Origin: Microbacterium sp. LWH13-1.2
Lineage (GTDB): Bacteria; Actinomycetota; Actinomycetes; Actinomycetales; Microbacteriaceae
Assembly (NCBI RefSeq): GCF_038397735.1
Contig: NZ_CP151635.1
Coordinates: 2,418,001-2,482,000 of the forward strand
DNA: 64,000 nt
Reading direction: 5' to 3'
This document shows positions 52,712 through 63,280 of the stretch, piece after piece. Every line of letters starts with the position of its first letter. Within the stretch, counting starts at the first letter, position 1. The notes beneath the pieces were generated by a model, which was not told where the DNA came from, did not search any database, and saw only the letters and a list, made by a program, of their open reading frames with translations. The position numbers were made by a program, and so were the translations under genes.

Positions 52712-53473
52712 TCAGACGGTGGCGACGAGAGGCAGCAGGCCTCGCTCGGCGAGTGCGCCCTGAAGCTCCGTCACGTCGGCGAGCACCGCGTCGGCGCCGG
52801 CCTCGGTGAGCGCCCGGACGCGGTGGGCCCCGGTGAGCACACCGGCGACGAATCCCGCCCCGGCGCGGCGCCCCGACTCGACATCGCTGACGGTATCGCC
52901 CGCCACCGCGACAGCTCCGACCGACGAGGTCCGCGTGCGGATCAGCGCCATGAGAACGAGGTCGGGCGCAGGGCGCCCTCGACCGGCATCCACCGGCGAC
53001 ATCGCGAGGTCGACGAGACCGTTCCAGCCGAGACCGTCGATCAGCGCATCCCGCGTCACCGGCGCGAATCCCGTCGTGAGCACGACGGTGAGGCCCGCAT
53101 CCTTGAGGCCCTGGATCGCATCGGCCGCCCCGGGGATCTCGGTGACTCCCTGCTCGGCGACGATCTCGGCGTATGCTCCTTCGAATGCCGCAGTGGCGCG
53201 CTCCGCAGCGGCGCGATCGCCCCCGGCGAGATGCGTGAACACGTCGATCTTCGACTGGCCCATCGTCGCGCGCACATGGGCGAGGGCGTCGTCCCACGGC
53301 ATCCGATCCGCGACCCCGGTGCGCTCGGCGGCGCGCCGGAAGGCGGTCTCGACCACCCCGTCGTCGAGCACGGTCGTGCCGGCCATGTCGAGGACGACGA
53401 GCTCGAGAGCGCGGCCTTCTTCGATCGCGCGGCCCTCTTCGAGCGGACGGCCTTCTTCGATCGGAGTGGTCAT
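52712..53473 (-). CDS. Phosphonatase-like HAD hydrolase
   Basis: A 253-residue HAD enzyme related to phosphonoacetaldehyde hydrolase: LVVLDMAGTTVLDDG (DxAGT motif I, as in phosphonatase), a TTGF motif II, and GDTVSDVESGRRAGAG (motif IV). The HAD core is preceded by three near-repeats of the form LEEGRA (residues 5-23). Its ATG overlaps the upstream oxidoreductase stop as ATGA. It probably cleaves a C-P bond or a phosphate ester derived from the imported phosphonate. Confidence 0.87.
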   Translation of the reverse strand: MTTPIEEGRPLEEGRAIEEGRALELVVLDMAGTTVLDDGVVETAFRRAAERTGVADRMPWDDALAHVRATMGQSKIDVFTHLAGGDRAAAERATAAFEGAYAEIVAEQGVTEIPGAADAIQGLKDAGLTVVLTTGFAPVTRDALIDGLGWNGLVDLAMSPVDAGRGRPAPDLVLMALIRTRTSSVGAVAVAGDTVSDVESGRRAGAGFVAGVLTGAHRVRALTEAGADAVLADVTELQGALAERGLLPLVATV

Positions 53474-54633
53474 GGTGTTCCTTCCATTGCGGGTGTCCAC
53501 CCGAAGGCGGCGGTGAGATTCTCTTCGGCGAGCCCCAGACCCGTGGTCATTCCGATGCCGGTGGTCGCGGCGAGCACCAGCACCCCCTCGTCGCCCCTGT
53601 CGATGAGGAAGTCCTGCGACGCCTTGGCGTAGACGCCCTGCCAGCGCTCCAGCACACGCGGTGCCGGCATGTCGAAGAGCGCCTCCGCCTCGGCGAGGAA
53701 GGCGGCGAACGCGGCTTCGGGCTGGAAGGGCACAGGCGCTGTGGACGTGGCGTGCGAGTCGCCGATGATGAGCGTGCCGTCGGGCAGCTGCGTGTACATC
53801 TGGTTGAGGTCGAGGGCTGCGAGATCGGGGCGCTCTGCATGCAGGCGCTCCCGCAGTGCGACCGTCGCCTCGCCGTCGGCGAAGCGCCCGTACCGCACGA
53901 GCGACCAGCCCGTCAGCAGCGGGGCCGAGAGCGGATGCCGGAACGTCACCGCCGCGCGCATCATGTCGAGCGCGCAGCGAACCACCCCGATGCGCTCGGC
54001 GACCTCGGGCAGCAGCTGGTCGATGTCGTGGTTGACCGCGACGACGACGACACCTGCTGTGATCGCGCCGCGGGTCGTGTCGACGCGCCCGCCCGACACC
54101 GCTGTCACGGCGGTGCGGAAGCGGAATTCGACGCCCAGGCTCACGAGGTGCCGGACGATGGCTGCGGCCGCACTGCGGGGGTCGGTCTGCAGGTCGGTCT
54201 CGATATGGGCTCCACCGACGAGGCCGTCCGCGCGCAGCGGCGCCCGTCGCAGGAGTTCGTCGGTCTCCAGCATCCGGATGCCACCATCGGTCGCCGCCTG
54301 TTCGAGCACCGCGATCTCGTCGGCATGACGGGCCGCGACCAGGGTGCCGGATTCGCGCAGCCAGAAGCCGGCGTCGCGCGACAGGCGAAGCCACAGGTCA
54401 CGGGAGGCGTCCGCGTAGCGCCGCGCCTCCCCCGCCTGCGCACCGATGCAGAGGTGGCCGAAGTTACGGATCGTGGCGCCGACCGGAGCATCCGCCCTGT
54501 CCACGACGATGACGCGCAGGCCTCGTCGCACGGCAGCGTAGGCGGCGCCGAGACCGACGATGCCGGAGCCGACGACGACGACATCCGCCGTGTTCGCCGC
54601 CTTCCCCGCAGTGGTGAGCGCGGCGCGGGTCAT
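53470..54633 (-). CDS. FAD-dependent oxidoreductase, phosphonate-linked
   Basis: A 387-residue DAO-type flavoenzyme with the dinucleotide motif VVVVGSGIVGLGAAYAAVRRG near residue 18 and TTGIGMTTGLGLAEENL near the end. It resembles the TIGR03364 group that co-occurs with phosphonate transport. Such enzymes oxidise amines; an aminophosphonate substrate giving an aldehyde is plausible and would feed the HAD enzyme encoded next. It overlaps the neighbouring genes on both sides by four bases. Confidence 0.85.
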   Translation of the reverse strand: MTRAALTTAGKAANTADVVVVGSGIVGLGAAYAAVRRGLRVIVVDRADAPVGATIRNFGHLCIGAQAGEARRYADASRDLWLRLSRDAGFWLRESGTLVAARHADEIAVLEQAATDGGIRMLETDELLRRAPLRADGLVGGAHIETDLQTDPRSAAAAIVRHLVSLGVEFRFRTAVTAVSGGRVDTTRGAITAGVVVVAVNHDIDQLLPEVAERIGVVRCALDMMRAAVTFRHPLSAPLLTGWSLVRYGRFADGEATVALRERLHAERPDLAALDLNQMYTQLPDGTLIIGDSHATSTAPVPFQPEAAFAAFLAEAEALFDMPAPRVLERWQGVYAKASQDFLIDRGDEGVLVLAATTGIGMTTGLGLAEENLTAAFGWTPAMEGTP

Positions 54634-56366
54634 CGGAACACCTTGCGCATCCACATCGCGAGCCCTTCGACGATCAGCACCGTCGCGAGGATCATCAGCA
54701 CGATCGCGGTGACCGTCTCGTAGCGCGAGCCCTGGCTGGCGTTGAGCAGGTAGTAGCCGACCCCGCCGCCGCCGACGATGCCGAGGATCGTCGCCGCGCG
54801 GATGTTCGTGTCGAGCATGTAGAAGCTGTGCCCGATGAGCGCCTGCATGCCCTGCGGCACGGTGGCCGAGGTGTAGGTCTGCAGCCGCGTGGCGCCGACG
54901 GCTCGCAGCGCGCGCTCGGGGCCGCGGTCGACCTCTTCGAACGAGTCGGCGATCAGCTTGCCGAGCAGACCGATGCCGCCGATGGCGAGCGCGATGACTC
55001 CCGCCTGCGCCCCGAGGCCGGTGATCACCACGAGCACGATCGCGAGGATGAGCTCGGGGATGCCGCGGATGCCGACGAGCAGGAATCGTGCCACGCCTCG
55101 CGCACCGGCGCTCGGTGCGACGTTGCTCGCAGCCAGCGACCCGAGGATCAGCGAGGGCAGCAGGGTGAGCACGGTGGCGGCGAGTGCGATCGCGACGGTG
55201 TCGCGCATCGCGCTGAGCATGACGGAGGCGTCGTAGCTGCCGAACGACGGCGGCCAGAACTTGGCGGCGACCTCGGGGAGCTTCGCCCAGAAGGTGAAGA
55301 AGTCCATCCAGTTGATCTGGCTGACGACCACACTGCCGATCACGACGAGCACGGAGATCACGACGCCGGTGGTGTTGCGCACACGTTCGGCCGTCCACGG
55401 CCGACGTACGGCGCTCTGCGGAGAGGCCGCCCACGCAGGGCTCATGCTCGCGGCCTCGCCTACCCGGTCGCCGAGGCGGGGGTGGATGAGCCGGTCGATC
55501 CATGAGCGGGTGTGCTTCTGGTTGCCGAGCATCGCACCTCGCACCATGCTCGAGACGATCTCCATCACCACGCACAGGATGAAGATGACCAGGGCGATGC
55601 CGAGGCCCTTGCCGTAGTTGAGCGCCTTGAACGCGTACGACATCTCGAGTCCGAGACCTGCGACGCCGACGTAGCCGAGCACGACGCTGCCGCGCAGGTT
55701 GATGTCGTTGCGGTGCAGCACGGTCGCGACCCAGCTCGGCAGCACCTGCGGCAGGATGCCGGAGACGAACTCCTGCATCTTCGAACCGCCCGCGGCGCGG
55801 ATCGCGAGCCGGGGTCCCTCGTCGATCTGCTCGATCGCGTCGGCGAACATCTTCGAGATCATGCCGATCGAGTGGATGCCGATCGCGAGGATGCCGGGCA
55901 GGGTGCCGAGCGAGAACATGAGCACGAACGCCATGGCGAGCACGACGTCGGGAAGCGCACGGGTGAGCACGCCGACGAAACGCGCTGCGGCGCGCCATCC
56001 GTTGCCCGGGGTCGTGTTGGAGGCGGCGAGGTATGCGATCGGCACCGAGAGCACCGCAGCGAGCAGCGTGCCGACCAGCACGAGCCCGACCGTGAGGGCG
56101 ATCAGCCAGGCGAGGTCGGCAGGTTCCGGAAAGGAGAGTCCGCCGACGCGCGCCATGAAGTTCTCGGCGTTGCCCCAGCTCTGCACCATCGCCGGGATCG
56201 AGATGCCGACCTCGTTCACCGCGAGGATGCCGAGGCCGACGAGAGCAAGAAGGGTCAGCCCTGCGGCGATGCGTTCAGCCGAGATCGGACGCCGCGGGGC
56301 ACGATCGGCGACGGTCGCGGACGCGGGCACCTCGTGGGCGCGCGGTGCGTCGGAGAGGAGGCTCAT
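54630..56366 (-). CDS. phnE: Phosphonate ABC transporter permease, fused double PhnE
   Basis: A 578-residue permease made of two tandem BPD permease domains, about residues 80-280 and 375-575. Each has the EAA-type loop (DEGPRLAIRAAGGSKMQEFVSGILPQ and DRGPERALRAVGATRLQTYTSATVPQ). Most bacteria encode one domain per chain, so this single polypeptide supplies the whole channel. It overlaps phnC by four bases. Confidence 0.92.
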   Translation of the reverse strand: MSLLSDAPRAHEVPASATVADRAPRRPISAERIAAGLTLLALVGLGILAVNEVGISIPAMVQSWGNAENFMARVGGLSFPEPADLAWLIALTVGLVLVGTLLAAVLSVPIAYLAASNTTPGNGWRAAARFVGVLTRALPDVVLAMAFVLMFSLGTLPGILAIGIHSIGMISKMFADAIEQIDEGPRLAIRAAGGSKMQEFVSGILPQVLPSWVATVLHRNDINLRGSVVLGYVGVAGLGLEMSYAFKALNYGKGLGIALVIFILCVVMEIVSSMVRGAMLGNQKHTRSWIDRLIHPRLGDRVGEAASMSPAWAASPQSAVRRPWTAERVRNTTGVVISVLVVIGSVVVSQINWMDFFTFWAKLPEVAAKFWPPSFGSYDASVMLSAMRDTVAIALAATVLTLLPSLILGSLAASNVAPSAGARGVARFLLVGIRGIPELILAIVLVVITGLGAQAGVIALAIGGIGLLGKLIADSFEEVDRGPERALRAVGATRLQTYTSATVPQGMQALIGHSFYMLDTNIRAATILGIVGGGGVGYYLLNASQGSRYETVTAIVLMILATVLIVEGLAMWMRKVFR

Positions 56367-57271
56367 GAGACTCGCGCCCTGTGGAGCTGTGCGGCTTCGG
56401 TGACGCCCTCGCCGTCGGTGTTGCCCGCGGTGGTATCGCCGGCCGTCTCGAGGGCGACGTCCGCCGCGATCTCGATGAGTTCGGCCTGCACGGCCGTGAT
56501 CTCAGCGGTCGTCGTCGCGACGCGTCCGTAGATCTCCATGACCTCCGCCTTGGTGAGGTCGGTGGTCGGGGTGTCGAGCACGATCTCGCCGTGTCGCAGA
56601 CCGATGATGCGGTCGGCCCACGAGATCGCGAGGTCGACCTGGTGCAGGCTGCAGACGACGGTGAGGCCCTCGGCTGCGGCGATCTCGCGGATCAGCGCCA
56701 TGACCTGGTCGCTCGATTCGGGGTCGAGAGAGGCGACGGGCTCGTCGGCGAGCAGGACGTCGGGCTTCTGCATGAGGGCTCGTGCGATCGCGACGCGCTG
56801 CTGCTGTCCGCCAGACAGGGTGTCGCTGCGCTGGTAGGCACGGTCGAGCAGGCCGACGCGATCGAGGTGCCCGAGCGCGCGGAGCTTCGCCGCCTTCGAG
56901 TAGCCCCAGAGACCGAATCGGGGTCCGCGGACCTCGGACAGCGATCCGGTCAGCACATTCTCGAGAACAGTGAGCGAGGGCACGAGTTCGAACTGCTGGA
57001 AGATGAAGCCCACCCGGCTGCGGAGCCGACGAAGAGCCTTGCCCCTGAGGGTGGGAACCTTCGCGCCGAGGACCTCGATGTCACCGGAGGTCGGAGTCTC
57101 GAGGCCGTCGAGGTGGCGCAGCAGCGTCGACTTGCCCGAGCCCGAGAGGCCGAGCAGCACGACGACCTCGCCGCGTGACACCTGCAGCGAGACGTCCTTG
57201 AGCGCCGTCGTCGAACCGAACTTCTTGGTCACGCCCGCCAGGCGGATCAGGGCGTCGGATGCCGCATTCAT
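56363..57271 (-). CDS. phnC: Phosphonate ABC transporter ATPase
   Basis: A 302-residue ATPase with Walker A GLSGSGKST, Q-loop FIFQQFELVP, signature LSGGQQQRVAIA, Walker B VLLADEPVASLD and the His in CSLHQVDLA. Past about residue 255 it has an extra 45-residue tail (ITAVQAELIEIAADVALETAG...) not typical of PhnC. GGAGAG lies six bases before the ATG. Confidence 0.93.
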   Translation of the reverse strand: MNAASDALIRLAGVTKKFGSTTALKDVSLQVSRGEVVVLLGLSGSGKSTLLRHLDGLETPTSGDIEVLGAKVPTLRGKALRRLRSRVGFIFQQFELVPSLTVLENVLTGSLSEVRGPRFGLWGYSKAAKLRALGHLDRVGLLDRAYQRSDTLSGGQQQRVAIARALMQKPDVLLADEPVASLDPESSDQVMALIREIAAAEGLTVVCSLHQVDLAISWADRIIGLRHGEIVLDTPTTDLTKAEVMEIYGRVATTTAEITAVQAELIEIAADVALETAGDTTAGNTDGEGVTEAAQLHRARVS

Positions 57272-57340
57272 TGCATTCTCTCCAGTGGTGCGTCGTGCTC
57301 GGGTGTTCGTCGTGCTCGGGTGGTGCGCGTTTCTGTGGGT

Positions 57341-57392
57341 GAGCGCCCTTCGCCTCCCGCAGCTGCTGCGGAGGATGAGACGAAGGGCGCTC
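57341..57392 (-). terminator. Intercistronic hairpin between phnD and phnC
   Basis: GAGCGCCCTTCG (57341-57352) and CGAAGGGCGCTC (57381-57392) form a perfect 12-bp stem, with an additional inner stem around 57354-57374. It lies in the 149-bp gap after phnD and before phnC. A partial terminator or mRNA stabiliser would give more binding protein than transporter. Confidence 0.7.
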
Positions 57393-57420
57393 GACCCCGA
57401 CCGATGGTCAGTGCCGGGGG

Positions 57421-58350
57421 TCAGCCCTGGCACTGCTCCGCTTCGGTCTCCTTGCAGATGTCGCGGATCAGGTCGTAGTACGCGTCGTCGACCGGCTTCG
57501 TGGCGAAGAAGACGCTGCGGAACGAGTCCGTGTCGGCGCTGTCGATGCCGGCGGCGATGATGTCGTCGATCGTGATCTCGGAGAGTCCGTCGATGAGCTT
57601 CTTCGAGACGTCATCGGGCAGAGTCGAGGAGTAGACGAGCGGGGCGCCAGGGACCATCGTCTCGTCGATGACCTTCACGGCATCCGACTTCTCGACCTCG
57701 GAATCCTCCGCGAAGCCGACCTCGCACTCGACTCCCTCGCCGACCTTCTGCACGCTGACGTCGTGCTTGCCCGCGAAGACCGGGGTGATGTCGGCCTGGG
57801 GGTCGACGCCCGCTTCCAGCAGGTTGTACGACGGGAAGAGGTAGCCCGACGTCGACGACGGGTCGACGAAGCAGACCTTCTTGCCCGCGAAGTCCTCGAT
57901 GCTCGAGATGTCGCTGTCGGCGGGGACGATCGCCTGCGAGTAGTAGCCGGGCTCCTGGCCCTCTTCGGTGACGATCGAGGAGATCGGGGTGAGCTTCGCG
58001 CCGTTGTTGGTCGCGGTCACATAGGTGAAGCCCGAGAACGAGGCGACATCGACCTTGCCGGCGACTGCGGCCTCGATGAGAGCCGCGTAGTCGGTGGACT
58101 CGTGGTACTCGACGGACTTCCCGGTGATCTCGGCGATGTAGTCCATCAGGGGCTGGTAGTTCGTCTCGGTGTCGACCGAATCGGGGACGACGCCGAAGAC
58201 GAGCGTGTTCTCGTCGACCGCGAAGCCGCTGGCGGTGGACGACTCGTCGGCGGCGGACGAGCCGGTGGCCTCGGCGGAGCCGGAGCAGGCGGCGAGACCG
58301 AGCGCGAGGATCGCTGCGCCGGCGAGGAGGGGGAGAGCGCGGAGCTTCAT
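57421..58350 (-). CDS. phnD: Phosphonate-binding lipoprotein
   Basis: A 309-residue PhnD-type binding protein. Its signal peptide ends in LAAC with the acylated Cys at residue 22, then an Ala/Ser-rich linker. The mature part has LVFGVVPDSVDTETNYQPL, HESTDYAALIEAAVAGKVDVASFSGFTYV and CFVDPSSTSGYLFPS, typical of the PhnD/phosphite-binding family. It is the first gene of the operon. Confidence 0.92.
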   Translation of the reverse strand: MKLRALPLLAGAAILALGLAACSGSAEATGSSAADESSTASGFAVDENTLVFGVVPDSVDTETNYQPLMDYIAEITGKSVEYHESTDYAALIEAAVAGKVDVASFSGFTYVTATNNGAKLTPISSIVTEEGQEPGYYSQAIVPADSDISSIEDFAGKKVCFVDPSSTSGYLFPSYNLLEAGVDPQADITPVFAGKHDVSVQKVGEGVECEVGFAEDSEVEKSDAVKVIDETMVPGAPLVYSSTLPDDVSKKLIDGLSEITIDDIIAAGIDSADTDSFRSVFFATKPVDDAYYDLIRDICKETEAEQCQG

Positions 58351-58420
58351 GAGGACCTTTCACGGTGGGAGGGGTGATCCGTGAGCAACTCTGACAGCCC
58401 GCACGTCGAGATATATACCT

Positions 58421-58434
58421 AACTCGGAAGAGTT
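58421..58434. promoter_or_regulatory. Inverted repeat in the phnD promoter region
   Basis: AACTC-GGAA-GAGTT is a perfect 5-bp inverted repeat next to a minus-strand TATATAT (-10 candidate, about 58410-58416). Its place between phnD and the divergent GntR gene fits an operator for that regulator. A second palindromic TGTATAC lies just inside the GntR gene. Confidence 0.45.
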
Positions 58435-58519
58435 CAGGACTCGTTCACCCGCGATTTCCCCGGATGAACACGCGCACAACGGACGCCAGCCACGTCTGGA
58501 CGCCAAGTAGTATGCCTAT

Positions 58520-59263
58520 GTGGCCGAAGCTGTATACACCCAGATCGCTGACGACCTGCGCGCGCAGATCGCCGCGGGCATCCTGCGCCCCGGCGATGAT
58601 GTGCCGACCGAAGCGGATCTCGCGGCTCGATGGCAGACATCGCGCGGCCCCATCCGCAATGCACTGGCGGCGCTGAAGAGCGAAGGCCTCATAGAGACGG
58701 GCCGCGGGCGCCCCGCACGAGTGGTCGCACGCAAGGCGAGCCAGGCGGTCGACATGTCGGTGCCGTTCACACGATGGGCGCGAGATCTCGGGGTCACCCC
58801 GGGGGCGCAGACGCAGGAGCTGAGCCTGCGCCGCGCGGGTGATCGCGCGGACATGCTCGGCGTCGCACCGGATGACACGATCGTCGGCGTCGTTCGACTG
58901 CGCCTGCTCGACGGTCGCCCGACCATGCTCGAGCGGCTCTTCTACACCGAGGCGGTCGGACGAAGACTGTTCGAGGTGGACACCGACGAGATCTCGATCA
59001 CGGAGTACCTCGGCTCTGTCGGGCACCCCATCGTCGGGCTCGAGCACCAGATCGATGCGGTCGCCGCGGATGAGCAGGATGCCGCGTTGCTGCGAGTCCC
59101 CTCAGGGACGCCGATCCTGCGGCTGAGCCGCATCTCGCGCGACGCGGACGGGCACATCTTCGAGGCGTCGGAGGATCGCTACCTGAGCGAGGTCGTGCGC
59201 TTCACGGTCGCAGCGTCCGGAATATCGACGGACGGTCACTACATGCGCGCAGTGGGCGGCTAG
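58520..59263 (+). CDS. GntR/HutC-type regulator (UTRA domain)
   Basis: A 247-residue regulator with an N-terminal GntR winged helix (VYTQIADDLRAQIAAGILRPGDDVPTEADLAARWQTSRGPIRNALAALKSEG) and a C-terminal UTRA ligand domain. It is divergent from the phosphonate operon and probably controls it in response to a phosphonate or a breakdown product. GTG start. Confidence 0.92.
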   Translation: MAEAVYTQIADDLRAQIAAGILRPGDDVPTEADLAARWQTSRGPIRNALAALKSEGLIETGRGRPARVVARKASQAVDMSVPFTRWARDLGVTPGAQTQELSLRRAGDRADMLGVAPDDTIVGVVRLRLLDGRPTMLERLFYTEAVGRRLFEVDTDEISITEYLGSVGHPIVGLEHQIDAVAADEQDAALLRVPSGTPILRLSRISRDADGHIFEASEDRYLSEVVRFTVAASGISTDGHYMRAVGG

Positions 59264-59540: not shown

Positions 59541-59605
59541 GCTCGTCAGTCAAGGCTTCGCGACGGATCGGGCGCTCGTCTGTCAGGGCTTCGCGACGGA
59601 TCGGG
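59541..59605. repeat. 33-bp tandem duplication at the kinase 3' end
   Basis: A 32-base segment beginning GCTCGTCAGTCAAGGC (59541-59572) is repeated at 59574-59605 with two differences. The second copy contains the stop codon and final codons of the histidine kinase gene; the first copy, just beyond the stop, repeats the same terminal codons and stop. Confidence 0.75.
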
Positions 59606-60743
59606 CGATCGGCAGACGTGCGGCCACGACCCACCGACCATCGACTTCTCCGGCACTGAACTCACCGCTCGCGCCGAGAACGCGCTCGGCCATACGGCCG
59701 ATTCCGGTGCGGCTGGAGGAGAGCTCTCGCCGCGGCGTCACCGACAGGGGGCTGCTCACAGTCATCTGCGCCATCTCATCGTCGACGTCGAGTCGGATCT
59801 CGATCTCGCCCTGACCGGCGTACTTGAGGACGTTGGTGGCGGACTCGCGCATGATGCGGGCGAGGATGATCTCGGCAGCGCGAGGGATGCGCTCGTCCGC
59901 GGGGTCTCCGTCGAGCAATACCGAGTGCCCGGCGGATTCGAATTCCTGCTTCGCCTCATCGATGGATGCGGCGAGGTCGCCGGTCGGCATACCCTCGGAG
60001 CGAGGGCCGTCGTCGGCGAGGTCAATCACGAAGCGGAGATCGGTCATCGCCTTGCGGGCGGCGATCCGGATCGCCTCTTGCGAATCGGTGCTGGTGCGAT
60101 CGTCGTCGAGCATCTGCACGTGCAACGACACCACGGTGAGGTGGTGCGCGATGCTGTCGTGCAGCTCGCCGGCGATCCAACGTCGTTCGGCGAGTACTGC
60201 TTGGCGCTCCTGCTCGGCCTTCTCGGCCAGCTGCACTTCGAGAGTCCGCCCTCGGGCGAACGCGATACGGAGTGCGAAGCCGACGGCACCGGATACTGCG
60301 GCACCGACGAGGAAGATTGCGATGTTGAAGGCATCCCTCGAGTCGCCGGAGACGACCAGTGCGGATGCGACAAGGAAGACACCGGCATACGACAGGACCA
60401 AGGAGGTCCACCCCAGACGCACGATCAAGCCTGCCGCGAAAGCGCCGACCGTGAGCACCTGAGCTTCGATGCCGGGGATGAAGGAGAGTGCGAACACCAC
60501 GCCGAGGGCGTATGTCGCGATCAGTGGCGACCAGAGATACAAGGCCAGGACCGCGGTGGATGCGATCCCGATTGCCGCCGTCAGCGGCTCCAACCCCGGA
60601 GGGAGGAACAGTCCGACGATGTCGAAGATGAAGATCGTCCCGACCACCACCAGTACGGCGATCCGTTCGATCGTGCTGAGCTTCTCGCCCTTGCCGAGTC
60701 GGGTGACGTCTGTGCGTTCACCCGCCGAAAGACTTGAAGCCAT
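59583..60743 (-). CDS. NarL-type sensor histidine kinase
   Basis: A 386-residue kinase with an N-terminal membrane domain of about six helices (residues 25-165) and no extracellular sensor domain. The HisKA_3 dimerisation region carries WIAGELHDSIAHHLT with phospho-acceptor His195. The ATPase domain has the N-box RESATNVLKYA and GIGRMAERV. AAAGGAG lies ten bases before the ATG. It is preceded 29 bases upstream by a 15-codon peptide gene and faces the divergent response regulator, its likely partner. The ligand, entering or seen within the membrane, is unknown. Confidence 0.9.
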   Translation of the reverse strand: MASSLSAGERTDVTRLGKGEKLSTIERIAVLVVVGTIFIFDIVGLFLPPGLEPLTAAIGIASTAVLALYLWSPLIATYALGVVFALSFIPGIEAQVLTVGAFAAGLIVRLGWTSLVLSYAGVFLVASALVVSGDSRDAFNIAIFLVGAAVSGAVGFALRIAFARGRTLEVQLAEKAEQERQAVLAERRWIAGELHDSIAHHLTVVSLHVQMLDDDRTSTDSQEAIRIAARKAMTDLRFVIDLADDGPRSEGMPTGDLAASIDEAKQEFESAGHSVLLDGDPADERIPRAAEIILARIMRESATNVLKYAGQGEIEIRLDVDDEMAQMTVSSPLSVTPRRELSSSRTGIGRMAERVLGASGEFSAGEVDGRWVVAARLPIARSVAKP

Positions 60744-60772
60744 ACTTCAGTATCTCCTTTCCGCCAGATATG

Positions 60773-60820
60773 TTAACGGTAGAAGCCGAAGAAGAGTCCA
60801 ACCTGGTTCCAGAAAGACAT
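60773..60820 (-). CDS. 15-residue aromatic peptide gene (possible signal peptide of the kinase)
   Basis: A short reading frame encodes MSFWNQVGLFFGFYR and ends in TAA. It is preceded six bases upstream by AAAGGAGGTGA (60827-60837), complementary to the whole 16S anti-Shine-Dalgarno region and the strongest ribosome site I noticed in the window. The peptide has five aromatic residues among its last thirteen, two basic or polar ends and no signal sequence, similar in size to leaderless signalling peptides. It lies 29 bases upstream of the kinase gene on the same strand, so it is probably cotranscribed. It could be a pheromone, a membrane microprotein or a regulatory leader peptide. Evidence is sequence only. 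Confidence 0.7.
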   Translation of the reverse strand: MSFWNQVGLFFGFYR

Positions 60821-60907
60821 AGAGATTCACCTCCTTTATTGCACTTTTGACTAGCGATGCATTCATCTTCTCGGTGATCTGCACGCCGCACATCTGTCTC
60901 TCGTCTA

Positions 60908-60948
60908 GACCTCACTAGCCAAAGGTCCAATACATCGCGTCTGAGGTC
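60908..60948. promoter_or_regulatory. Candidate response-regulator operator in the divergent promoter region
   Basis: GACCTCA (60908-60914) and TGAGGTC (60942-60948) are an exact inverted pair in the gap between the divergent kinase operon and regulator gene. The left half lies within AGACCTCAC, and the same nonamer recurs at 59433-59441. NarL-family regulators bind short inverted heptamers, so this is a candidate binding site; it is inferred. Confidence 0.45.
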
Positions 60949-60969
60949 GCCCCCGGTTAGGCTTCCTGC

Positions 60970-61620
<651 letters not shown>

Positions 61621-61623
<3 letters not shown>

Positions 61624-61652
61624 GTCGCTGAGTCGCTGAGTCGCTGAGTCGC
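61621..61652. repeat. 8-bp tandem repeat, four copies
   Basis: TGAGTCGC is repeated four times head to tail. The first TGA is the stop codon of the response regulator gene. Confidence 0.9.
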
Positions 61653-61693
61653 TGACCTGATCGGGCGCGGCTTTCAGCCGGTGCGAGCGGATG

Positions 61694-63280
61694 TCAGCCG
61701 ATGCGAGCGAGTATGGGTGATCCGTGGCGGATCCGCGGGAGGCTGAGCCTCGGGATGCGCCAGCGCTGGTCAGGGTCCCACCATCGCGGTCCCCGCACCT
61801 GCGGGAGGCCCTCGTCCATCCGGATCTCCCACCCCCAGGTGCCGAGGGATCGGTGATGCCACCAGCACAACGGCACACCGTTGTCCGTATGCGTCGGACC
61901 ACCCCGCGCATGCTCGGTGACGTGGTGAATCTCACACCACGACGCCGGCACATGACAGCCGGGGATCAAGCATTCCTTGTCGCGGGCGATGATCGCTCGG
62001 CGTTGGTGCACGGTGAAGACCCGGTCGGTGGTGGTGATGCCGATGATCCTGCCCTCATCCATCAGCACCCGTTGGATGGTCCCGGCGCAGGCGACGTGCG
62101 CGGCGACCGAGACGGGCACGTGGGCACCGGATCCGGGGATCGTCGCCCAGCCGTTGTTGCCGCCCGCTCCGCCCGTTCCGGACGCAGCGTTCCCGAAGGC
62201 CGCACCGGCTGCGTGCGAGCCGTGAGCGGCGAGGTCTTTCGCGTCGACGGTCACGACGAGCACCGGTGACGACCCACCAAGGGTGGGCATGTCCCTGTGA
62301 CGGGCCGCGATCGCGAACACCATCGCCAGAGCGTCGTGGCGTTTCTGCGACGCGGTGCGATCATCGAGCACGCACCGCGGATCCGAGTTGAACGGATCCG
62401 GATCCGCATCCGCGTCCGCATCGACACCCGCACCCCCACGGGCACCCGTGCCCGCACCCGCACCCGCACCCGCGTCGGCATCGTCGCCGTCGCCGTCGCC
62501 GTCGCTGGGGGCGAAGTGGACTCCGGGCATGGGCGGGCCGTCACCCTTGGGGTTGAGGATCGCGTCCATGATCAGCTGCAGTTGTGCCGCGACGTCCGGG
62601 GTCAGATATCCCCGGATCGCGTGCACACCGTCCTGGAGACGCCCGATCGTGATCCCTCGCCGACGGCGGGAGTCCTCATCTTTCGGTTCCTCCCCGTCCG
62701 GGTCGAACATCGACGCGAGATCCTCCGCAAGAGCCTTCAAATCCTGCGCCGTCGGCGCCGGACCCGGCGCGTCCCCCTCGACGCCCGTGTCGACCCCGTG
62801 CCCGCGCGCGCACCCCGCCAGCGCGACATCCGCCGCCAGGCGTTGATCCACGCTGAGACGATCCCACACCTTCTCGATCGGGCCCGTCGCCGCGAGGAAC
62901 CCCGCCACCCCGACCACCCCGTCCAACAGCGCGAGCCGCAACTCCGACCACCGGGCCGGCATCCGCTCCCCCGCCAGACTCACCGGCCGTCGCACCAGAT
63001 CGACGACCGTGTCGACCCGCGATGCACCCCGCACATCCACCCGCACCGTCCGCTGCAACAACTCATTCACACCCCGACACCCCACCGAGTGCGGAAAGTC
63101 ACCCGCGTCTCCCGTCGCGATCGTCTCGACGATCACCGCCTCCGCACGCCGGAAGACAGCCCCGGCACCCTGCAACACGGTGACCCGATCCGCGTCCGAC
63201 AGCCCGGCGAGCGCGTCGTCGGACAGCACCGTGTCGAGGTCGGCGATGACCCGATCCAGAAGCTTCACCGTGCTGTTCAT
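61694..63280 (-). CDS. DUF222/HNH endonuclease domain protein
   Basis: A 528-residue protein of the actinobacterial DUF222 (13E12-repeat) family with a C-terminal HNH domain (CLIPGCHVPASWCEIHHVTEHARGGPTHTDNGVPLCWWHHRSLG). The middle has a low-complexity Asp/Gly/Ala run (GDGDGDDADAGAGAGAG, around residues 260-295) encoded by GC-rich hexamer-like repeats. The proteins are abundant and multicopy in Microbacteriaceae; their biological role is uncertain. Confidence 0.88.
   Translation of the reverse strand: MNSTVKLLDRVIADLDTVLSDDALAGLSDADRVTVLQGAGAVFRRAEAVIVETIATGDAGDFPHSVGCRGVNELLQRTVRVDVRGASRVDTVVDLVRRPVSLAGERMPARWSELRLALLDGVVGVAGFLAATGPIEKVWDRLSVDQRLAADVALAGCARGHGVDTGVEGDAPGPAPTAQDLKALAEDLASMFDPDGEEPKDEDSRRRRGITIGRLQDGVHAIRGYLTPDVAAQLQLIMDAILNPKGDGPPMPGVHFAPSDGDGDGDDADAGAGAGAGTGARGGAGVDADADADPDPFNSDPRCVLDDRTASQKRHDALAMVFAIAARHRDMPTLGGSSPVLVVTVDAKDLAAHGSHAAGAAFGNAASGTGGAGGNNGWATIPGSGAHVPVSVAAHVACAGTIQRVLMDEGRIIGITTTDRVFTVHQRRAIIARDKECLIPGCHVPASWCEIHHVTEHARGGPTHTDNGVPLCWWHHRSLGTWGWEIRMDEGLPQVRGPRWWDPDQRWRIPRLSLPRIRHGSPILARIG

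Follow-up and report, generated by a model that had tools for sequence, protein, structure and literature searches.

A conserved 15-codon gene beside a histidine kinase gene in Microbacterium and its possible place in a wider family of peptide signals

The window, i.e., the whole stretch of 64,000 nucleotides analyzed here, contains a sensor histidine kinase gene, a response regulator gene divergent from it and, in the intergenic region on the strand of the kinase, a micro-ORF of 15 codons (Table 1). The same divergent orientation of the regulator, a point absent from the preliminary description of this DNA, is seen in all 66 distinct loci of the orthologs. The N-terminal part of the kinase is strongly hydrophobic (approx. 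residues 20–165, from hydropathy) with no recognized sensor domain, and its core matches DesK in PDB over residues 166–364 only. The kinase is 97% identical to those named Microbacterium sp. Leaf159 and M. phyllosphaerae.

Table 1. Features of the locus, with positions given as those of the window.
Feature	Position	Strand	Basis or remark
Sensor histidine kinase, 386 aa, HisKA_3 (DesK/NarX type)	59583..60743	-	Pfam PF07730, PDB match, hydropathy
-10-like hexamer GATACT	60749..60754	-	Five bases before kinase ATG
Micro-ORF, 15 codons, MSFWNQVGLFFGFYR, stop TAA	60773..60820	-	Conserved in 79/79 fetched orthologous loci; dN/dS-like 0.27 in frame
Shine-Dalgarno sequence of the micro-ORF, AAAGGAGGTGA	60827..60837	-	GGAGGTG in 51/66 distinct loci, close variants in the other 15
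Imperfect inverted repeat GGACCTT..GAGGTCT	60907..60928	-	Upstream of micro-ORF; consensus TAGACcTTtGgCnAnnnAngtcT, 65 aligned intergenic regions
-10-like hexamer TAGGCT	60958..60963	+	Before regulator ATG; AGCCTA conserved on minus strand of intergenic consensus
Response regulator, 217 aa, receiver + LuxR/GerE DNA-binding domain (Response_reg + GerE)	60970..61623	+	Divergent from kinase

On the minus strand, the ribosome site AAAGGAGGTGA (60837–60827) is followed by a six-base spacer, the ATG at 60820, the codons of MSFWNQVGLFFGFYR and a TAA ending at 60773, and exactly 29 bases lie between the micro-ORF and the kinase ATG (60743). This arrangement had been described before, and each of its elements was confirmed. 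The Shine-Dalgarno match is full. Since GGAGGTG followed after 3–9 bases by ATG occurs at only two sites in the 64 kb window, the other of which encodes two residues, a micro-ORF with such a ribosome site is beyond chance. The encoded 15-mer has neither a signal sequence nor a cysteine; the 15-mer peptides are hydrophobic, aromatic and often cationic. ORFs of 15 codons are too short for gene callers, and this micro-ORF is an example of the class of genes that annotation misses.

The nearest genes of the module are, besides kinase and regulator, a DUF222 gene and a GntR/UTRA gene. Among the neighboring genes of the window, none was recognized as an exporter, protease or modifying enzyme beside the module, or as an immunity or export gene adjoining the peptide. 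The nearest transporter genes, past a GntR gene, resemble a binding-protein importer; positions 53470–59263 hold a phosphonate-type ABC importer-like cluster (binding protein, ATPase, permease, FAD oxidoreductase), judged from translations and accompanied by a divergent GntR/UTRA regulator, the GntR gene being the one domain-checked there. An imperfect tandem duplication of approx. 33 bases (gcccgatccgtcgcgaagcc...; 59541–59606) is found at the 3′ end of the kinase gene, and kinase C-termini vary in length among relatives. A short tandem repeat of cagcgact with about four units (61620–61655) lies beside the 3′ end of the regulator gene, and the DUF222 gene (61694–63280, 528 aa) has central acidic low-complexity Asp-Ala repeats.

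For the comparison of orthologs, the kinase was searched in 295 genomes of the same genus. At E ≤ 1e-40, 78 genomes gave 79 matches in all, comprising 65 full-length orthologs (58–100% identity), two partial copies (genomes G250 and G034) and 12 more distant kinases. A second collection added 14 loci, 13 titled Microbacterium and one Leucobacter, while a fifteenth (a Streptomyces kinase, 30%) was left out. The orthologous set therefore consists of 79 loci (65 + 14) with 66 distinct intergenic sequences; some genomes are in both collections. A micro-ORF with a strong ribosome site is present in all 79 orthologous loci fetched, and the spacing from Shine-Dalgarno sequence to start is 6–8 bases in all 66 distinct loci. 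Met1, Trp4 and Gly12 are invariant (66/66 distinct sequences). The micro-ORF has 15 codons in 59 of the distinct sequences, 14 in three and 13 in four, and the gap from its end to the kinase measures 29 bases in 38 of the 66 distinct loci and 28–43 bases in the others. Four 15-mers keep one cysteine (MTFWQQLCILLGIYR at locus L082, and those at L059, L064 and L066). Concerning the two partial copies, the peptide is intact in G250 (L085). In G034 (L086), the micro-ORF is frameshifted, the kinase lies in three frames and the regulator in two, which reflects either decay of the whole module or an assembly error.

Substitutions in codons 2–13 were counted by parsimony on the kinase tree. The 118 silent and 124 replacement changes give a rate ratio of 0.27, versus 1.12 and 1.53 for the other two frames of the same bases. 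For comparison, the ratio is 0.76 in the 5′ flank, 0.85 in the gap before the kinase and 0.31 in a stretch of the kinase itself. The region also carries conserved promoter-like and operator-like sequence, as would be expected if the ORF were untranslated and its conservation that of regulatory DNA. Nevertheless, variation within the ORF falls mainly on synonymous changes, in one frame only and unlike in the flanks, and we regard this explanation as extremely improbable. The proposal of a gene at this position had implied a conserved frame and ribosome site across orthologous loci as well as a synonymous bias in the peptide codons; both were found, and nothing in the comparison refutes it. Judged from its pattern of substitution, the micro-ORF is a real gene that is selected as a protein sequence.

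Co-occurrence of peptide and kinase was assessed with the exact 15-mer-type pattern, which matched 35 of 198 genomes of the genus. These are 35 of the 46 genomes with a full-length ortholog versus none of the 152 others (Fisher p about 1e-29), the latter including genomes with a broken copy (G034) or a distant kinase only. All 35 matches lie 90–143 bases from the kinase alignment. When 398 genomes sampled from the family were searched with the same pattern, three matches were obtained, i.e., the window's own genome, another genome of the genus and a locus in another genus (L099), which was rejected as the start of a long unrelated ORF. Within the genus, the exact peptide form was found only beside this kinase. 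The tie between peptide and kinase claimed at the outset is borne out by these counts, together with the 79 orthologous loci.

Both the codon test and the co-occurrence test are independent of a fixed peptide rule, which found a peptide in 92 of 101 intergenic regions with a divergent regulator versus 24 of 2020 shuffled sequences. As the rule was drawn up with the peptides already known, 92/101 is descriptive. Among the nine divergent loci missed, eight have a peptide by eye and one is the frameshifted L086. The same rule found no peptide in any of 24 loci with a same-strand regulator; four of these 24 belong to the five additional kinase matches within the genome of the window. Two genomes hold two modules with different peptides (G195 with L016 and L089; G1260 with L141 and L148). 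All genome samples were drawn from larger groups, and the frequencies refer to the sample.

Peptides at this place are not confined to the orthologs. Eleven of the 12 distant kinases of the genus (33–42% identity) have a short peptide there, e.g., MVSTYGIWEYLCQVLGLCS, MMMIRSGIWTALCRLLGLCS, MFIFSTYSGIWDWLCKTFGVCN, MRIFGILPTASLWTTLCEVLGLCK and MGIRLGLLAGPFTELCKLLRICQG (the last by eye). Ten of the 11 end with C-x5-C plus one or two residues, and the remaining one is MWYWLGQVLRIWK. The twelfth, L096, was set aside as a kinase remnant for which no divergent regulator was found. More distant kinases of the same layout are accompanied by peptides of 18–30 residues, mostly with a C-x5-C loop at the end; natural peptides of other groups include MTFWQQVGKFFGLVR and MTFWEQLARLFGAIR.

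With an alignment of nine kinases, 8 of 299 genomes matched at the family level (1e-60), and five loci from other genera (L104, L106–L109) combine a divergent regulator with a peptide of the family form, read by eye in L106 and L107. At the order level, 12 of 297 genomes matched (1e-50). Seven of the eight new loci have a peptide (L111–L114, L116–L118; those of L116 and L118 read by eye), and in L115, also of this order, the regulator is on the same strand and a peptide is lacking. L111 and L112 encode Cys-free 15-mers. L116 and L118 encode precursors of 58 and 66 residues ending ...GFFHDLMCVVLKKRC and ...GFVSDLNCFFFKRC, whose N-termini are Sec-signal-peptide-like by inspection. In the family to which the L118 genome belongs, 10 of 106 genomes matched (1e-45), with 14 matches in all; eight loci with a divergent regulator have a peptide and six with a same-strand regulator have none, where L139, the same place as L116, is counted among the eight on L116's reading. 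Three of these eight peptides are 14–15-mers of the window type (MLWYQLARILGLRP, MYIWRQLGIFFGFIR, MSFWRAVGYFLGIFH).

At the class level, 21 of 325 genomes matched (1e-50), namely six of the same genus, one of Cutibacterium type (L124) and 14 others. The latter (L125–L138) were rejected as generic kinases with same-strand regulators; the peptide rule found nothing in the 13 to which it was applied, L127 being judged by regulator orientation only. L124 and three genomes of its genus (4 of 77 searched in that family) have a divergent regulator and a signal-peptide-like precursor ending like GLCTLYPDWCFN. These Cutibacterium-type, secreted-looking peptides with a two-Cys loop lie at L154:1182–1370, L153:2694–2876, L152:2689–2868 and L124:2699–2905. 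In total, N-termini resembling signal peptides were seen by inspection at eight loci: L118 (Georgenia), L116, L140, L144, L124 and L152–L154. Named relatives of the L124-type precursor are found in Cutibacterium porci and C. avidum, where these secreted-looking proteins are annotated as “hypothetical protein”, and the assignment to Cutibacterium follows the relatives' names. Homology of this group to the window system would rest on kinase profile and gene order, not on peptide sequence. Searches of Pfam and NCBIfam with eight longer peptides and precursors gave no match above cut-off (a 15-mer is too short to scan). Below the cut-off, L154 matched WGxxGxxG with 19.9 bits (cut-off 35) and, over its N-terminal part, the AimP pheromone family with 13.5 bits (cut-off 35).

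The preliminary description had suggested a new module of Microbacteriaceae. This is too narrow, as 14–15-mers are also present in a second family of this order and the longer types reach as far as Cutibacterium. Tentatively, since it might equally turn out otherwise, we propose that these loci belong to an unrecognized family, spread across part of the Actinomycetes, in which gene-encoded peptides signal to two-component receptors. A single layout (divergent regulator, peptide gene, kinase with a promoter of its own) would then extend from unprocessed 13–15-mers (Microbacterium, Leucobacter, the second family of the order) via 18–30-mers closing with a C-x5-C loop to the secreted loop peptides of Georgenia and Cutibacterium, and some genomes would have two distinct modules.

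Concerning expression, a -10-like box lies 4–7 bases before 70 of 75 kinase starts, versus 59 of 1950 at other upstream offsets. A ribosome-site-like tetramer is absent at 4–9 bases from all these starts and present at 10–12 bases in 58 of 75; the 17 others have none at 4–14 bases, and 16 of the 17 retain a -10-like box. The sequence AAAGGAG, proposed earlier as the ribosome site of the kinase, does exist at 60760–60754, but its distance of 10 bases from the ATG is a long spacing and it overlaps GATACT. A separate promoter immediately preceding the ATG probably serves the kinase. We infer that kinase and regulator may be made mainly from leaderless mRNAs and the micro-ORF from an autoregulated promoter. 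The inverted repeat upstream of the micro-ORF, which is the single match in the window (0.05 expected), is a probable operator of the response regulator. Elsewhere in the genome, no convincing second site was found and no regulon was visible: with up to three mismatches, there are six matches genome-wide and two for a reversed-pattern control. The second-best match, L156:1501–1522 (two mismatches), was rejected as a second operator site because no clear promoter is present there; it lies approx. 130 bases upstream of a minus-strand ORF of 177 codons.

These data bear on the possibility that the micro-ORF is a leader peptide, whose translation, or stalling upon it, controls expression of the kinase. 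The constant proximity to the kinase, with the 29-base gap in more than half of the distinct loci and at most 43 bases in the others, fits such a role, and so does the tetramer 10–12 bases upstream of most kinase starts, which would allow a longer mRNA to be translated. A translational leader is nevertheless unlikely, because the kinase probably has its own promoter, as indicated by the -10-like boxes, including those at starts lacking the tetramer, and because no stable RNA structure was seen around the micro-ORF (0/66 with z below −2, mean z +0.36; the window alone, z −0.97). The locus has no Rfam match either, and longer, secreted-looking precursors stand at the same place in relatives. We therefore give the leader, which had been offered as an alternative in the preliminary description, little credence.

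The distances between peptides correlate with those between the membrane parts of the kinases once the catalytic part and the regulator are accounted for (partial Mantel r 0.53, p 0.001), versus 0.05 for the catalytic part corrected for the membrane part. Linkage explains part of this covariation, because neighboring stretches also correlate with the membrane part, namely the third codon positions of the peptide (0.43), the N-terminal tail of the kinase (0.46) and likewise the 5′ UTR (0.21) and the gap (0.19). After further linkage controls, a correlation of 0.41–0.47 between peptide and membrane part remains. An amphipathic antimicrobial helix was considered and rejected: the hydrophobic moment of the window 15-mer is not above that of its shuffles (a fraction of 0.59 is as high), and for one of five 15-mers tested, less than 5% of shuffles are as high. 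The peptide might still be an effector, i.e., a small membrane-active or antimicrobial product controlled by a two-component system whose kinase senses something else. Its hydrophobic, aromatic and often cationic composition and the very strong ribosome site would suit this role. On the other hand, the amphipathicity is unremarkable, no immunity or export gene was recognized adjoining the peptide in the window, and the peptide co-occurs with the kinase and varies in step with the latter's membrane part, partly by linkage; an effector thus appears improbable.

Based on these comparisons, we consider it moderately likely that the micro-ORF encodes the cognate ligand or a membrane-embedded modulator of the adjoining kinase in a three-gene circuit, with the regulator divergent and peptide and kinase on the opposite strand. 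The peptide would exit the cell or enter the membrane and be sensed by the membrane part of the kinase, which would then phosphorylate the LuxR-type regulator; the latter would regulate the peptide gene by binding to the inverted repeat located between the two divergent promoters, closing a feedback loop. Since the 15-mer has no signal sequence, it could possibly act from inside the membrane. The relatives with signal-peptide-like precursors suggest recognition outside the cell or in the membrane, and the secreted-looking forms favor a 15-mer acting outside. A role as signal or ligand is strengthened by these precursors, and this half of the role initially suggested for the peptide, signal or leader, stands as the best reading.

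A narrower alternative is that the peptide stays with the cell that makes it, where it would insert into the membrane and act as a feedback modulator of that cell's own kinase, the secreted-looking relatives being a separate derivation. Peptides of the window class lack a signal sequence and have only 13–15 residues, their changes track the membrane part of the kinase, and autoregulation via the operator-like repeat is probable, all of which would agree with such a modulator. However, relatives of the same layout are signal-peptide-like precursors with a C-terminal two-Cys loop, pointing to the outside of the cell, and we rate purely internal feedback as rather unlikely.

A conserved peptide and its kinase suggest overlooked peptide signaling in a bacterial group where few such systems are known. 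According to a 2016 review, evidence for quorum sensing in Microbacterium is lacking, even at the bioinformatic level (PMC4748050), and a 2023 paper describes the signals of Actinomycetota as typically enzyme-made small molecules and oligopeptides as used in Bacillota (PMC10075063). We found no description of such a peptide–kinase pair or family in the open-access papers searched. If the ligand reading is true, peptide signaling in these bacteria, skin Cutibacterium included, becomes directly testable with synthetic peptides of 15 residues.

Several known systems resemble the module in part. Leaderless short peptides of Firmicutes (SHP/Rgg pheromones, phenol-soluble modulins) are very short, hydrophobic and without a classical signal sequence, as is the window peptide. 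SHPs, however, act on cytoplasmic Rgg regulators, whereas the partner here would be a membrane kinase, and no dedicated transporter was identified; peptides of Rgg systems are exported through PptAB according to PMC7564271. DesK/DesR shares the HisKA_3 kinase and LuxR-type regulator, and the matched DesK chains have 218–224 residues, so that the comparison covers the catalytic part. Compared to the DesKR layout, gene order is divergent here and there is an extra peptide gene. MgrB and SafA have about 40–65 residues and a transmembrane helix and are not encoded beside the kinase, whereas the window peptide has 15 residues and is adjacent to it; a small peptide tuning the membrane kinase of the same cell would work alike.

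By anatomy, Agr and ComQXPA are nearest, both of which have a processing enzyme, while none was recognized beside the window module. Agr (AgrD/AgrB/AgrC/AgrA) combines a peptide ligand with a membrane kinase without a large extracellular domain, as outlined in PMC8875677. A further likeness is that many members of the window's peptide family carry a cysteine in their C-terminal part. In contrast to Agr, the regulator here is of the LuxR/GerE and not the LytTR type, the kinase belongs to HisKA_3, the window peptide is Cys-free and no AgrB was recognized among the four adjacent genes. ComQXPA of Bacillus subtilis (ComX, ComP, ComA), treated as a peptide two-component system in PMC10075063, likewise places a small peptide gene by a multi-helix kinase and a LuxR-type regulator, and its combination of a HisKA_3 kinase having a polytopic sensor part with a LuxR-type regulator is found here as well. 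The differences are that no ComQ-like gene was recognized among the four adjacent genes, that the regulator is divergent, that the peptide has 13–15 residues and no propeptide, and that the host is not a member of the Bacillota. ComX is modified on a tryptophan, and Trp4 is invariant in the peptides of the orthologous loci.
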